Assembly: GCA_903874275.1 (NCBI GenBank)
Contig: CAIQRS010000068.1
Location: forward strand, 1 to 45,435
Length of the DNA: 45,435 nt
From: an uncultured Anaeromyxobacter sp.
GTDB lineage: Bacteria; Myxococcota; Myxococcia; Myxococcales; Anaeromyxobacteraceae
Direction: 5' to 3'
The notes under the pieces: model-generated
Told to the model about the DNA's origin: nothing
Seen by the model: the letters and a program-made list of their open reading frames with translations, nothing else
Database searches by the model: none
Position numbers and translations under genes: made by a program
In this document: in pieces, positions 31,955-37,101 of the stretch
Numbering within the stretch: the stretch's first letter is position 1
How the letters are laid out: every line of letters starts with the position of its first letter

Positions 31955-33754
31955 GTGGCGGAACTGATCCTGAAGGTCGGCGAAGGCGACCCCCGGTCGG
32001 TCCGGCTCACCCGCCGGATCACCACCGTGGGCCGGGACCCTGCCAGCAACCTGCACATCGACGACCCGACGCTGCCTCCCACCGCGTTCCACGTTCTCTC
32101 CGACGGCGACGCCTTCACCGTGTCGGCCCACACCGGCTGCGAGATGACGGTGAACGGCCGGCGCCGCACGACCTGCCGCCTGGCGCCCGGCGACGTCCTG
32201 CGGGTGGGGGTCCACGAGCTGGTCTTCTCGCCGCTGCCCCCGCTGCCCGCCCCGGCCGGTCCGGCCGTCCGGGAGGAGCCCCTGGTCCGCTTCTCCCGCC
32301 GGTTGCTCGAGGCCGGCTCGCTCGAGAGCCTTCTCGACGCCCTCCTCGACGCGCTCCTCGAGGTGACCCGCGCCGACAAGGGCTTCGTGATCGAGCTCTC
32401 CGACGGGACGCCGGAGGTGCGTGCCTCCCGGAACGTCGCCCCGGGAAACGTCGAGGACGCGGTCTCCCGCGTCTCCGACTCGATCGTCCAGAGGGTCCTC
32501 ACCACCCGCCGTCCGCTGGTGGTGGCCGACGCCCTTCACGACGCCGAATGGTCGAGCTCCGCGTCGGTCGTCGACCTCCGGCTCCAGTCGGTGATGTGCG
32601 CACCCCTCGTCGCCCGCGGGGAGATCTTCGGCGCCATCTACCTGGGCAACGACAGCGTCCGGAACCTCTTCGACGAGCGCTCGCTCGAGACCCTCACCGT
32701 CTTCTCCTCCCAGGCATCGCTTCTCCTCCAGAACGCCCTCCTCCTCAGGGACCTCCGCCGGGAGAACGAGGCGCTCCGCGAGGCCATCGAGAGCCGGCGC
32801 TACGGCGAGCTTCTGGGCGCCGGGCCGAGCATGCGCGAGGTCTACCGGCGCATCGAGAAGGTCGCGCCCACCGACGTCACCGTGCTCATCCAGGGGGAGA
32901 CCGGCACCGGGAAGGAGCTGGTCGCCCGCGAGATCCACCGGCGCTCCCCCCGCGGCGTGGGTCCGTTCGTGGCGGTGAACTGCGCGGCCATCCCCGAGGG
33001 GTTGCTGGAGTCCGAGCTCTTCGGCCACGTGAAGGGAGCCTTCACCGGCGCCGTGGCCAACCGCGCCGGCCGCTTCCAGGCCGCCTCGGGCGGCACGCTC
33101 TTCCTCGACGAGATCGGCGAGATGCCGCCTTCGCTCCAGGTGAAGCTCCTGCGGGCCATCCAGGAGCGGGTGGTCCAGCGGGTCGGCGAGTCCCGCGGTG
33201 AGCCGGTGGACATCCGCGTGGTGGCCGCCACCAACCGGAACCTGGAGGACGAGGTCCGCTCCGGACGGTTCCGCGAGGACCTCTACTACCGGCTCCACGT
33301 CGTCACCATCGACCTGCCTCCTCTCCGGGAGCGCGGAGACGACGTCACGGTCCTGGCCCGCTGGTTCCTGCAGCGCTACGCGGACGAGTTCGACTCGCGA
33401 GCCCGCGGGTTCGCGCCCGGAGCGCTGGCCGCGCTGCGGCGGTACACCTGGCCCGGCAACATCCGCGAGCTCGAGAACCGCGTGAAGAAGGCGGCCGTGC
33501 TGGCCGACGGCCCGCTGGTGACCGGCGAGGACCTCGACCTGGGCCAGGACGGTCTCGAATCCACCTTGCCCCTGGCCGACGCGCTCGAGGAGTTCCGGAA
33601 GCGCTACATCAGCGAGACCCTGGACCGAAACGGCGGCAACCGGACCAAGACGGCGAAGGACCTCGACGTGGACCCACGCACCATCTTCCGCCACCTCGAG
33701 AAGCTCGAGTCGGAGCGGCGCGGCGCCCCCCTGCCACCCGGAGCGAAGCCTTGA
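31955..33754 (+). CDS. Sigma-54-dependent activator with FHA and GAF domains
   Basis: 599 residues from GTG 31955, with AGGAGGG 5-11 bases upstream. Domains: FHA (about 18-95) with GRDPASNLHIDD and the C-terminal Asn in MTVNGRR; GAF (about 125-270) with GEIFGAIYLGND; AAA+ (about 285-515) with Walker A GETGTGKE (near 313), the sigma-54 contact loop GAFTGA (near 360) and Walker B GGTLFLDEIGEMPP; and a Fis-type helix-turn-helix (about 560-595, GGNRTKTAKDLDVDPRTI). It should open sigma-54 promoters when its FHA or GAF domain receives a signal. FHA domains bind phosphothreonine, and a Ser/Thr kinase heads this operon. The FHA motif has Thr instead of the usual Ser (TAFH for SxxH). Confidence 0.93.
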   Translation: MAELILKVGEGDPRSVRLTRRITTVGRDPASNLHIDDPTLPPTAFHVLSDGDAFTVSAHTGCEMTVNGRRRTTCRLAPGDVLRVGVHELVFSPLPPLPAPAGPAVREEPLVRFSRRLLEAGSLESLLDALLDALLEVTRADKGFVIELSDGTPEVRASRNVAPGNVEDAVSRVSDSIVQRVLTTRRPLVVADALHDAEWSSSASVVDLRLQSVMCAPLVARGEIFGAIYLGNDSVRNLFDERSLETLTVFSSQASLLLQNALLLRDLRRENEALREAIESRRYGELLGAGPSMREVYRRIEKVAPTDVTVLIQGETGTGKELVAREIHRRSPRGVGPFVAVNCAAIPEGLLESELFGHVKGAFTGAVANRAGRFQAASGGTLFLDEIGEMPPSLQVKLLRAIQERVVQRVGESRGEPVDIRVVAATNRNLEDEVRSGRFREDLYYRLHVVTIDLPPLRERGDDVTVLARWFLQRYADEFDSRARGFAPGALAALRRYTWPGNIRELENRVKKAAVLADGPLVTGEDLDLGQDGLESTLPLADALEEFRKRYISETLDRNGGNRTKTAKDLDVDPRTIFRHLEKLESERRGAPLPPGAKP

Positions 33755-34360: not shown

Positions 34361-34894
34361 CTACCGGGTGGGGTGCGCCGCCTCGCGGGCGTGGGACATC
34401 GCCTCGGCCGCGGCGCGGGCCAGGTCGCCGTTCTCGTCGGCGAAGCGGTTCACCTGGGCGGTGTAGGCGCGGTGCAGCGCCAGCATGGCGTCGCGCGCGG
34501 CCGCCATGTCGGCGCGCTCCACGGCCCATTCACCCTTGGTTAAATCGAGCCGGCAGCGGTCGGAGAGATCTTCCACCCGCTCCTCCCAGCGCGGCGCCCA
34601 CTCGCGCCAGGCTGCCAGCGGCATGGGCCCCTCGAAGTTGGTGCCCATGGCCCATGCGCGCTGGTTCTGCTCGACGTACAGAGCATCCAGGTCGTCCATG
34701 CAGACCCGGAGCGTCGCCCGTGTGGGGATGGCGGTCCTCGAAGCCGGCGGGGCACGGCGCTCCCGCCCGCGGAGCGTCCTCACCACGCTCACCGCAAAGA
34801 AGCCGACGGCGACCGCGATGGCCAGGAAGTAGAGGATCCACGCGGCCATGCGATACGGCCGAAGCTTCGGGTCGCGCGTTGCCACTGCGCGCAA
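34361..34894 (-). CDS. Small single-pass membrane protein of unknown function
   Basis: 177 residues if read from TTG 34894; GTG 34885 or the Met before AAWILYFLAI are possible shorter starts, and none has a clear Shine-Dalgarno. One strong membrane helix (about 17-40, AAWILYFLAIAVAVGFFAVS) is followed by a basic stretch and a helical, charged domain (about 60-177) with two cysteines (LRVCMDDLDALY and DRCRLDL). No family is recognised. Its GC-rich codon use matches the genome, while the sequence just upstream is AT-richer. It is convergent with the kinase/activator operon and probably transcribed from the palindrome-bearing gap. Confidence 0.6.
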   Translation of the reverse strand: MRAVATRDPKLRPYRMAAWILYFLAIAVAVGFFAVSVVRTLRGRERRAPPASRTAIPTRATLRVCMDDLDALYVEQNQRAWAMGTNFEGPMPLAAWREWAPRWEERVEDLSDRCRLDLTKGEWAVERADMAAARDAMLALHRAYTAQVNRFADENGDLARAAAEAMSHAREAAHPTR

Positions 34895-34923
34895 TCTGAC
34901 ATCAGCGCCCCGGCGGAGTCCAG

Positions 34924-34956
34924 CATTTCATACATGAAATGTTAAGATTCATGAAT
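34924..34956. promoter_or_regulatory. Pair of operator-like palindromes
   Basis: CATTTCAT-AC-ATGAAATG (34924-34941) is a perfect 8-bp inverted repeat, followed after five bases by the perfect palindrome ATTCATGAAT (34947-34956). Both contain TTCAT/ATGAA half-sites. TAAGAT at 34943-34948 could be a -10. The arrangement resembles binding sites of a small dimeric repressor. Which gene it serves is unclear; the minus-strand gene at 34361-34894 begins 30 bases away. Confidence 0.45.
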
Positions 34957-35143
34957 GCAATCGGAATGTGACCCAACAAGGTCTCCTTTTGGGGACCTAC
35001 CCCGTGATTTCAGGATGTTGGCAAGTGTCAGGAATTGGCCCCTACCTTGCTAAACAATCCTTTGAAGCGCTGCGGGCCAGTGTAGGCATCTCCCCCCCCC
35101 GCATCCTGTGCCGGTCATGCGGCGCTTCGGCAACACGGGAGGA

Positions 35144-35195
35144 GGCTTCCGGTCGGAACAACACGTCCGACACCCAGCACAGCCGGCCGGAAGCC
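35144..35195 (-). ncRNA. Possible three-way-junction RNA structure downstream of mutL
   Basis: Read on the minus strand, GGCTTCCGG pairs with CCGGAAGCC (9 bp, ends of the element). Between them, CCGGC-TGT-GCTGG (five pairs with one G-U) and TCGGA-CGTGTTGT-TCCGA (5 bp) form two internal hairpins with only three unpaired bases at the junction. The G-U pair exists only in minus-strand RNA, the direction of mutL, whose stop lies 17 bases upstream. It could be an mRNA-end structure or a dispersed repeat. There is no T-run. Confidence 0.35.
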
Positions 35196-35212
35196 CGCCC
35201 ACTTCCCCTCCT

Positions 35213-37036
35213 TCAGCGCCGTCCGACTCGCCGTTCCAGCTCGGCCAGCGGCAATTCCACGACCACCGGCCGTCCGTGCGGACACCTGGCCTTGAAATCG
35301 ATGGCGTCGAGCCCGTCGAGCAGGGCGCGGGCCTCCTCCCTGGTGAGGTCCTGGTTGGCGCGGACGGCGGCGTGGCAGGCCATGGTGGCGAGGAGCCCGT
35401 CGAGGGCCTCGCCCACGGCGCTCCCCCGCCCCGCCTCCTCGACCTGCTCTGCGAGGTCGGTGAGGAGAGGACCCATGGCCGCCCCTCCGAGGAGCGCCGG
35501 CGCGCTCTTCACCGCGAAGGCATCCCCGCCGAAGGGCTCGACCTCCAGGCCGACCGTCGCCAGGTCGCCCACGGCCCCCTCGACCATCCGCGCGGCCGGG
35601 GGCGTCAGCGTGACCACCGGAGGAACCAGGAAGGGCTGGACCTCGAGCTGGCGGCGGCGGAGCGCCTCCCGGAGGCGGTGGAAGAGGAGCCGCTCGTGGC
35701 TGGCGTGCTGGTCGATGACGACCAGGGCGCCCCCGGGGGCCTCGCAGACCAGGTAGGTCCGGGCGTGCTGCCCGACGTAGCGCATCGAGCCGAAGTAGCC
35801 CGGCGGCTGCGCCGGCGTCACTCCCGGCGAGGAGATGGGGGCTGGCCCGGCACCGGGATCGGCCGGAGAGGGAAACGGCAGCATGTCCCGCGCCCGCTCC
35901 GCCGTCCGCTCCCGGGCTGCGGCCAGGACTCCGGCGACGTCGTCCACGTAGGGCTCGGCGGCCACCGGGGCCGGCGGGAGGGCGCCATCCACCGGGGGAG
36001 CGCCACTTCCGGCGGCGGCGCCCCCGTGGCGAAGCCAGGGCGACGGGCGGAGCGCCTCGCTCACCGCGTGGTGGACGGCGTCGCTGGCGGCCCGAGCATC
36101 CTGGAAGCGCACCTCGAGCTTCTGGGGGTGGACGTTCACGTCCACGCGGTCGAGCGGCAGGTCGATGAAGAGAACCCCGGCCGGCTGTCGGCCGGCGGGG
36201 AGGGACCCGGCGTACGCGCGCAGGACCCCGTAGGCCAGCGCCCGGTCGCGGATGAACCGGCCGTTCACGAAGAGGTAGAGGCCGCGCGCGGTGGCCGCGG
36301 AGTGGTCGGGGGAGGTGACCACCCCGTGGACGTGCACCTCCCCCCTGGCGCCATCCACGCGGACGAGCCTGCGCGCCGCCTCCCGCCCCAGCGCGATGGC
36401 CGCCCGCTCCTCGGGGGAGGCGCCAGCCGCGGTGACGATGGCCGCGCGCCCGCCCGCACGGAGCGTGAACCCGACGTCGGGCCGGGCCAGCGCCACGCGG
36501 ACCACCGCCTCGCTGGCGTGGCCGGACTCGGCCGGTGCCGACTTCATGAACTTCCGTCGCGCCGGCGTGTTGAAGAAGAGGTCGCGGACCTCGACGGTGG
36601 TGCCGCGCGCCCGCGCCACCTCCTCGACCGCCTCCACGCGCCCCCCCTCGAGCGCGATGCGCGTGCCCACCACCGCGCCCGGGGGCCCCTCCGGACAGGT
36701 GTCGATGCGCATCCGGCAGACCGACGCGATGGCGGGGATGGCCTCGCCCCGGAAGCCCATGGTGGCGATGGCGGCGAGCCCGCCCGCGTCGCGGAGCTTG
36801 GAGGTGGCGTGGCGCTCCAGCGAGAGCAGCGCGTCCTCGCGCTCCATCCCCGACCCGTCGTCGGCCACCCGCACCAGGGTGAGCCCGCCGTCCTCCAGGT
36901 CCACCTGGATCGACCGGGCCCCCGCGTCGAGCGCGTTCTCGAGCAGCTCCTTCACCACCGAGGCAGGGCGCTCGACCACCTCACCGGCGGCGATCTGGTT
37001 CACGAGCCCCGGCGGGAGCACATGGATGCGCGTCAC
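35213..37036 (-). CDS. mutL: DNA mismatch repair protein MutL
   Basis: 607 residues from GTG 37036, which puts [20 protein letters not shown] at the normal N-terminus. The GHKL ATPase domain (about 1-330) has [26 protein letters not shown] and [20 protein letters not shown] Pro-rich linker (about 345-420) precedes the dimerisation/endonuclease domain. There the metal motif reads [12 protein letters not shown] (D442-H453), so the last Glu of DQHAx2Ex4E is His, while ACH and CPHGRP match the other endonuclease motifs. MutL couples MutS mismatch recognition to strand nicking in organisms without MutH. The variant residue makes the nicking activity worth testing. It is divergent from the acyltransferase gene (65-base gap). 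Confidence 0.95.
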
Positions 37037-37101
37037 GCCTCCCTCGTACCACGCCGATCCGACCGTTTGACGGGGGCACCCTTCCCCTGTACGAAACCGG
37101 G

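Follow-up and report, generated by a model that had tools for sequence, protein, structure and literature searches.

The gap at 34895-35212 of the window (the whole stretch of 45,435 nucleotides analysed, from the 5.07-Mb Anaeromyxobacter genome G000) most probably holds a gene for a Pxr-type small regulatory RNA, at which PxrR and sigma-54 would drive synthesis of a short RNA with a C-rich loop (probability roughly 0.87). In Myxococcus, Pxr is a small RNA that blocks fruiting-body formation, and its gene lies beside pxrR. In M. xanthus, Pxr synthesis requires PxrK/PxrR (PMC10217877), while Pxr depends on its SL1 loop to function and on SL3 to accumulate (PMC5684412). The gap is bordered by a small membrane-protein gene on the left and mutL on the right, both on the minus strand, and the element within it reads along the plus strand toward mutL. 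The left border at 34895 assumes a TTG start; if translation begins instead at ATG 34849, the gap becomes 34850-35212. The features are as follows.

34361 to 34894, minus strand: small conserved gene for a membrane-type protein, on the left of the gap; found in 20 of 24 family genomes and matched by neither Pfam nor NCBIfam.
34926 to 34939, no strand assigned: enhancer-type palindrome 1, TTTCATACATGAAA; predicted PxrR site matching 10 of 10 motif positions, full palindrome 34924-34941.
34947 to 34960, no strand assigned: enhancer-type palindrome 2, ATTCATGAATGCAA; predicted PxrR site matching 9 of 10 motif positions.
34979 to 34998, plus strand: short inverted repeat AGGTCTCC-TTTT-GGGGACCT between enhancer and promoter; seen in the sequence, no conserved counterpart established.
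35036 to 35051, plus strand: predicted sigma-54 -24/-12 promoter, TGGCCCCTACCTTGCT; consensus match and sole such site in the window.
35064 to 35128, plus strand: hairpin 1, GAAGCGC...GCGCTTC; counterpart of Pxr SL1 by fold, models R1 and R2 and covariation in relatives.
35092 to 35100, plus strand: C9 run in the hairpin 1 loop; proposed pairing seed, C6 to C9 in the loops of extracted relatives.
35144 to 35195, plus strand: hairpin 2, probable 3' end of the RNA, from repeat search and fold; no U-run here.
35213 to 37075, minus strand: mutL, right neighbour, convergent with the RNA gene; Pfam MutL_C and DNA_mis_repair, in 21 of 24 family genomes.

The two palindromes are TTTCA-N4-TG(A/C)AA-like with starts at 34926 and 34947, 21 bp apart; with a score of 15 of 20 or more they stand alone among plus-strand pairs in the 45-kb window. 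The second stands 74 nt before the -24 element of the 35036-35051 site, which fits the sigma-54 -24/-12 consensus; TGGC-N7-TTGCW occurs here once in the window, both strands together. Hairpin 1 follows the promoter element at 12 nt and carries C9 within an 18-nt loop. Across G000, a sigma-54 promoter with a C-run at the right spacing was found once, at this mutL-side site. The predicted fold of hairpin 1 has an energy of -28.7 kcal/mol (z -2.30, 5 of 200 shuffles as good), and the 141-nt fold a z of -1.61 (10 of 200 shuffles as good); folding alone is modestly unusual and the strong evidence is comparative. Pxr is built of three stem-loops and ends in a terminator whose 8-bp stem is conserved. 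Two hairpins are predicted in the window RNA, and hairpin 2 has no U-run in G000. Under the Pxr-type reading, PxrR, a two-component sigma-54 activator, would occupy the two palindromes and activate sigma-54 polymerase at 35036-35051, with transcription expected to start near 35062-35064. Hairpin 1 would expose nine C in its loop and hairpin 2 would end or stabilise the RNA. On the model of Pxr, the C-rich loop would base-pair with G-rich segments of its target mRNAs, and by transfer from M. xanthus it would be the working part. Another sigma-54 activator gene (FHA-like, GAF, AAA+, HTH_8) lies two genes from the gap at 31955-33754 and is not PxrR.

Both flanking genes were searched for across 24 Anaeromyxobacteraceae genomes. 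The membrane gene and mutL were adjacent in 19 of them, with gaps of 47 to 1001 bp, and the element was present within the gap in 15 of the 19 and missing in four (G001, G003, G013, G016). The G008 site, read at a contig edge, holds the element too, giving 16 of 20 readable genomes, and it points toward mutL wherever found at this site (locus B). Five of the copies from genus g4 (G011, G015, G020, G021, G022) have the enhancer pair and C-loop, with -24/-12 elements off consensus. The C-run varies from 6 to 9 across relatives, which counts against a conserved reading frame through the hairpin. A DNA search with the whole gap against 60 relatives convincingly aligned only the 5' end of the flanking gene (G001, G003, G007), the rest being short fragments. 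In the longer mutL-side gaps (L027, L029, L034, L035 and others; genera g3, g4, g5), hand translation shows a small ORF of about 56-62 codons on the reverse strand, lying between membrane gene and RNA gene. It gave no Pfam match, and the window does not contain it.

PxrR orthologues were identified in 21 of the 24 family genomes (520-559 bits, about 60% identity; next paralogues at most 397 bits), and G002, with a fragment at a contig end, is the twenty-second PxrR-positive genome. The G000 orthologue (C36:33405-34754, 547 bits) is on a contig other than that of the window and abuts nuoN directly, with no RNA gene between. A Pxr-type gene beside pxrR (locus A) is found in 17 family genomes, displaced by about 3.7 kb in G012, beyond an insertion in G021 and cut by the contig end in G023. 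PxrR-positive genomes with no locus A beside pxrR are G000, G002, G004, G007 and G008; locus B is present in G000, G004, G007 and G008, and the mutL-side site was not found in the G002 assembly (74% complete). Locus A or B thus occurs in 21 of the 22 PxrR-positive family genomes, the exception being G002. Judged from sequence, the mutL-side gene is an additional Pxr-type locus, distinct from the usual one next to pxrR, and since G000 is without the usual copy it would be the only Pxr-type output of PxrR there. G013 and G016 have PxrR and a pxrR-linked copy with an empty mutL site, while G001 and G003 have neither the RNA nor pxrR and their mutL sites are empty. Next to nuoN the latter two carry a selB-like gene (NCBIfam selB E 1.1e-29, partial, below cut-off). 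Members of this genus are about equally distant (NuoN 0.89-0.90), which fits one loss of pxrR and RNA or two. In G001 and G003, a gene for a small, probably exported protein is preceded by a sigma-54-like promoter whose upstream palindrome is a different one, around GTACCGGACGGTAC (L203 at about 1265, L204 at about 1741 and L205 at about 1775, minus strand; two copies in G003). These sites, which have C-runs, were rejected as Pxr-type on account of the other promoter, the other palindrome and the small protein gene downstream.

Two covariance models were built, for which E-values are rough by the search tool's own statement. R1 (from alignment A2) used pxrR-linked copies only, seven from the family and three from Myxococcaceae, leaving out near-identical pxrR-linked copies and the diverged G009_A and G014_A. 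With filters off, R1 ranked 35064-35128 top in the 45-kb window at 30.3 bits (E 4.2e-5), the runner-up scoring 15.7 bits. In whole-genome searches R1 matched locus B in G009, G005, G012, G004 and G007 (E 4.8e-5 to 3.7e-3); the window hairpin was unlisted in the whole-genome search owing to the pre-filter, after which 150 candidates were scored. R2 combined locus A and B copies with the promoter included; G000 was deliberately withheld, and G018_B and G008_B, whose 3' arms MAFFT had misaligned, were dropped. The sole R2 match in G000 was 35036-35128 (E 3.8e-6), and R2 also matched Pxr loci in Myxococcaceae (f4) and loci in families f2, f3, f5, f7 and f9. Both sides change in 9 of 23 pairs of the pxrR-linked set and in 5 of 10 pairs of the mutL-side outer stem, the latter from alignment A4 of eight mutL-side copies (g4 copies left out as diverged), with structures drawn from the same sequences that were scored. 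An Rfam search of the gap region gave no match at E up to 5, and RF01812 gave none on the core at 35040-35215 at E up to 10. Against its gathering score of 80 bits, RF01812 scored 17.6 bits on the pxrR-linked G006 copy and 129.2 bits on the Myxococcus-type L084 (G050), so that the current Rfam Pxr model misses the Anaeromyxobacteraceae copies. The mutL-side gene is filed as a Pxr-type variant outside RF01812 because it fails this model and sits elsewhere. An R1 hit at G011:C1:20545 (E 2.5e-5) was rejected, as the stretch has no sigma-54 site or enhancer pair and resembles coding sequence, and one at G010:C336:6029 (E 0.006) has no mutL, membrane gene or enhancer pair nearby. A class-level search, largely over genomes already in the order search, brought nothing further.

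A search for the complement of the M. xanthus Pxr probe published in PMC5568312, allowing at most three mismatches, found it in 59 of the 145 genomes in the order, all of Myxococcaceae, and in 0 of 24 genomes of Anaeromyxobacteraceae. Twenty of the probe loci were fetched and read, and these show paired TTTCA-N4-TGAAA-type sites, a sigma-54 promoter, a C-loop hairpin and a terminal hairpin. The paired enhancer motif, at 19-22 bp spacing, stands upstream of all 43 Pxr-type genes examined: 15 pxrR-linked, 11 mutL-side (excluding five g4 copies missed by the promoter pattern) and 17 from Myxococcaceae (16 of the 20 fetched loci plus L084). Shuffle controls gave 0 of 300 each, a significance that is overstated because the motif was read off the same sequences; uniqueness across the window is the fairer control. 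The distance from enhancer to -24 element is 71-77 nt at mutL-side copies, 76-86 nt at Myxococcaceae pxr genes and 96-123 nt at locus A. Fourteen of the 17 Myxococcaceae pxr promoters (L070-L083, L084) also have an AAGTG(C/T) element at -40, counted from the promoter stretch, and three g4 copies (G006_A, G017_A, G019_A) have it at -51, with a similar string at -13 in the window (35023); it is possibly another binding site.

Across the order, PxrR (E <=1e-138) was found in 126 of 145 genomes and R2 matches (E <=0.05) in 117. Crossed by hand, 113 genomes have both, 13 PxrR only, 4 the RNA only and 15 neither (Fisher p 1.0e-9, uncorrected for kinship); with G002 counted as PxrR-positive these become 113, 14, 4 and 14 (p 7.4e-9, likewise uncorrected). 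Among the 13 PxrR-only genomes, G014 and G008 hold diverged copies. Three of the RNA-only genomes have weak matches (E 0.005-0.017) and G027 a strong one (E 4.1e-6). The G027 match (L190, family f5) is near nuoN, with no PxrR match in the genome and no pxrR in the stretch, where another regulator may have taken over or pxrR may be missing from the assembly. Among the matches listed from f2, f3 and f7, the RNA is on a different contig from pxrR, and unlinked placement is therefore not peculiar to Anaeromyxobacteraceae; mutL lies beside the RNA in none of the stretches read from these three families. Genomes with two to six Pxr-type copies, mostly in tandem, were also seen (G040:C158, L199; G025:C209, L201; G060-G065; G084-G087; families f9, f3 and f4).

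The original prediction had described the gap as AT-richer in its left half, with at least five inverted repeats and a C9 run, and had offered a dispersed repeat, a miniature or decayed mobile element or a regulatory RNA as its origin. The composition was borne out (GC 0.48-0.51 over 34900-35049, and 0.64-0.84 in profiled 100-base windows outside 34850-35099), and the C9 run is present. An inverted-repeat search recovered 34924-34941 (perfect 8-nt arms), 35064-35128 (10-nt arms, 90%) and 35144-35195 (13-nt arms, 92%); 34947-34956 (ATTCATGAAT) and 34979-34998 (one G.U) are absent from the tool's list and visible by eye, so that all five exist. The former makes better sense as 34947-34960, repeating the motif of the first palindrome. 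As for origin, comparison with relatives strongly supports the regulatory RNA. A dispersed repeat, miniature mobile element or recent insertion would suit the AT-richness, the many inverted repeats and the absence from two congeners, and yet we give it next to no probability. The gap is single copy, a genome-wide search with a 363-base query returning one full match and otherwise matches of 19 bases (E 0.86) and 25 bases (E 0.25) only, where many copies had been the suggested sign of a repeat family. The element occupies the same site in the same orientation in several genera, its stems change in compensating ways, and no terminal repeats or target-site duplication were seen, as the original prediction had also noted. 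The proposed search for an empty site did find two (congener gaps of 47 and 54 bp), but these were rejected as proof of insertion in G000; loss is the simpler reading, since other genera carry the element there and these congeners are without pxrR.

Several findings count against the Pxr-type reading: the lack of an RF01812 match, the absence of the window hairpin from the R1 whole-genome results, the missing U-run after hairpin 1 and its modest fold, the empty mutL sites of the PxrR-positive G013 and G016, the 13 PxrR-only genomes, and the strong R2 match in G027 with no PxrR hit. Two other alternatives were weighed. The promoter could send sigma-54-driven antisense RNA into the 3' end of mutL, adjusting mismatch-repair expression in cis with the hairpins as pause or processing sites. 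The constant orientation toward mutL fits this, as does the absence of a U-run after hairpin 1 in G000, where hairpin 2 is then followed by CGCCCACTTCCCC, a weak terminator. We nevertheless regard it as quite improbable, because relatives have plus-strand U-runs after hairpin 1 (G009, G004, G007, G005) or TTTT after hairpin 2 (several g4 genomes) before mutL is reached, and conservation of the C-loop hairpin extends to loci remote from mutL. Convergence, in which PxrR sites were recruited to an unrelated hairpin so that regulation is shared and the RNA is no relative, would account for the widely different stem sequences of the two loci and the strongly different g4 mutL-side hairpins. It is very improbable given that R1, built without mutL-side copies, recognises them, and that the GAAG...CTTC ends, the spacing from -12 to C-run and the enhancer geometry are common to both loci; duplication is simpler. 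A quite improbable elaboration of the Pxr-type reading is that in this non-fruiting branch the PxrK/PxrR pathway has been rewired onto an unlinked C-loop RNA head-on to mutL, here its whole Pxr-type output, and that weak termination may add mutL antisense, tying nutrient sensing to mismatch repair.

Pxr is known as a gatekeeper of multicellular development, and Anaeromyxobacter is described in a review as producing no multicellular fruits (PMC8538405). The retention and frequent doubling of a Pxr-type RNA under the same predicted control in Anaeromyxobacteraceae, whose type genus is described as non-fruiting, implies that the RNA originally served another purpose, perhaps in a response to nutrients or growth that development took over later. 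Genomes with two, one or no copies, and with regulator and RNA lost together, provide a ready comparison. A 2014 study of Pxr distribution is cited by later papers for an origin within Cystobacterineae, and one later paper places all the homologues it examined between nla19 and an NADH dehydrogenase gene. In the portions of the literature searched, which did not extend to the 2014 study, no report was found of Pxr in Anaeromyxobacter or of a Pxr gene close to mutL; locus A in Anaeromyxobacter may be among the loci of that study.

Compared with Pxr of M. xanthus (RF01812), the window gene has the same paired TTTCA-N4-TGAAA-type sites, predicted sigma-54 promoter and geometry, a hairpin 1 with a C-run loop and GAAG...CTTC ends that aligns to SL1, a separate and probably terminal hairpin, and pxrR in the genome. 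It differs in lying beside mutL rather than between pxrR (nla19) and nuoN (an NADH dehydrogenase gene), in its longer hairpin 1, C9 loop, lack of a clear SL2 and lack of a U-run, and in falling below the Rfam threshold. The tandem pxr paralogues of Cystobacter (PMC5568312) are likewise a case of several Pxr-type genes in a single genome, every one under a sigma-54 promoter of its own; they stand in tandem beside nla19 (pxrR), whereas the mutL-side gene is unlinked. Locus A has the enhancer pair, promoter, spacing and C-loop in common with the window gene, but its hairpin itself has a U-rich tail and its enhancer is farther upstream.
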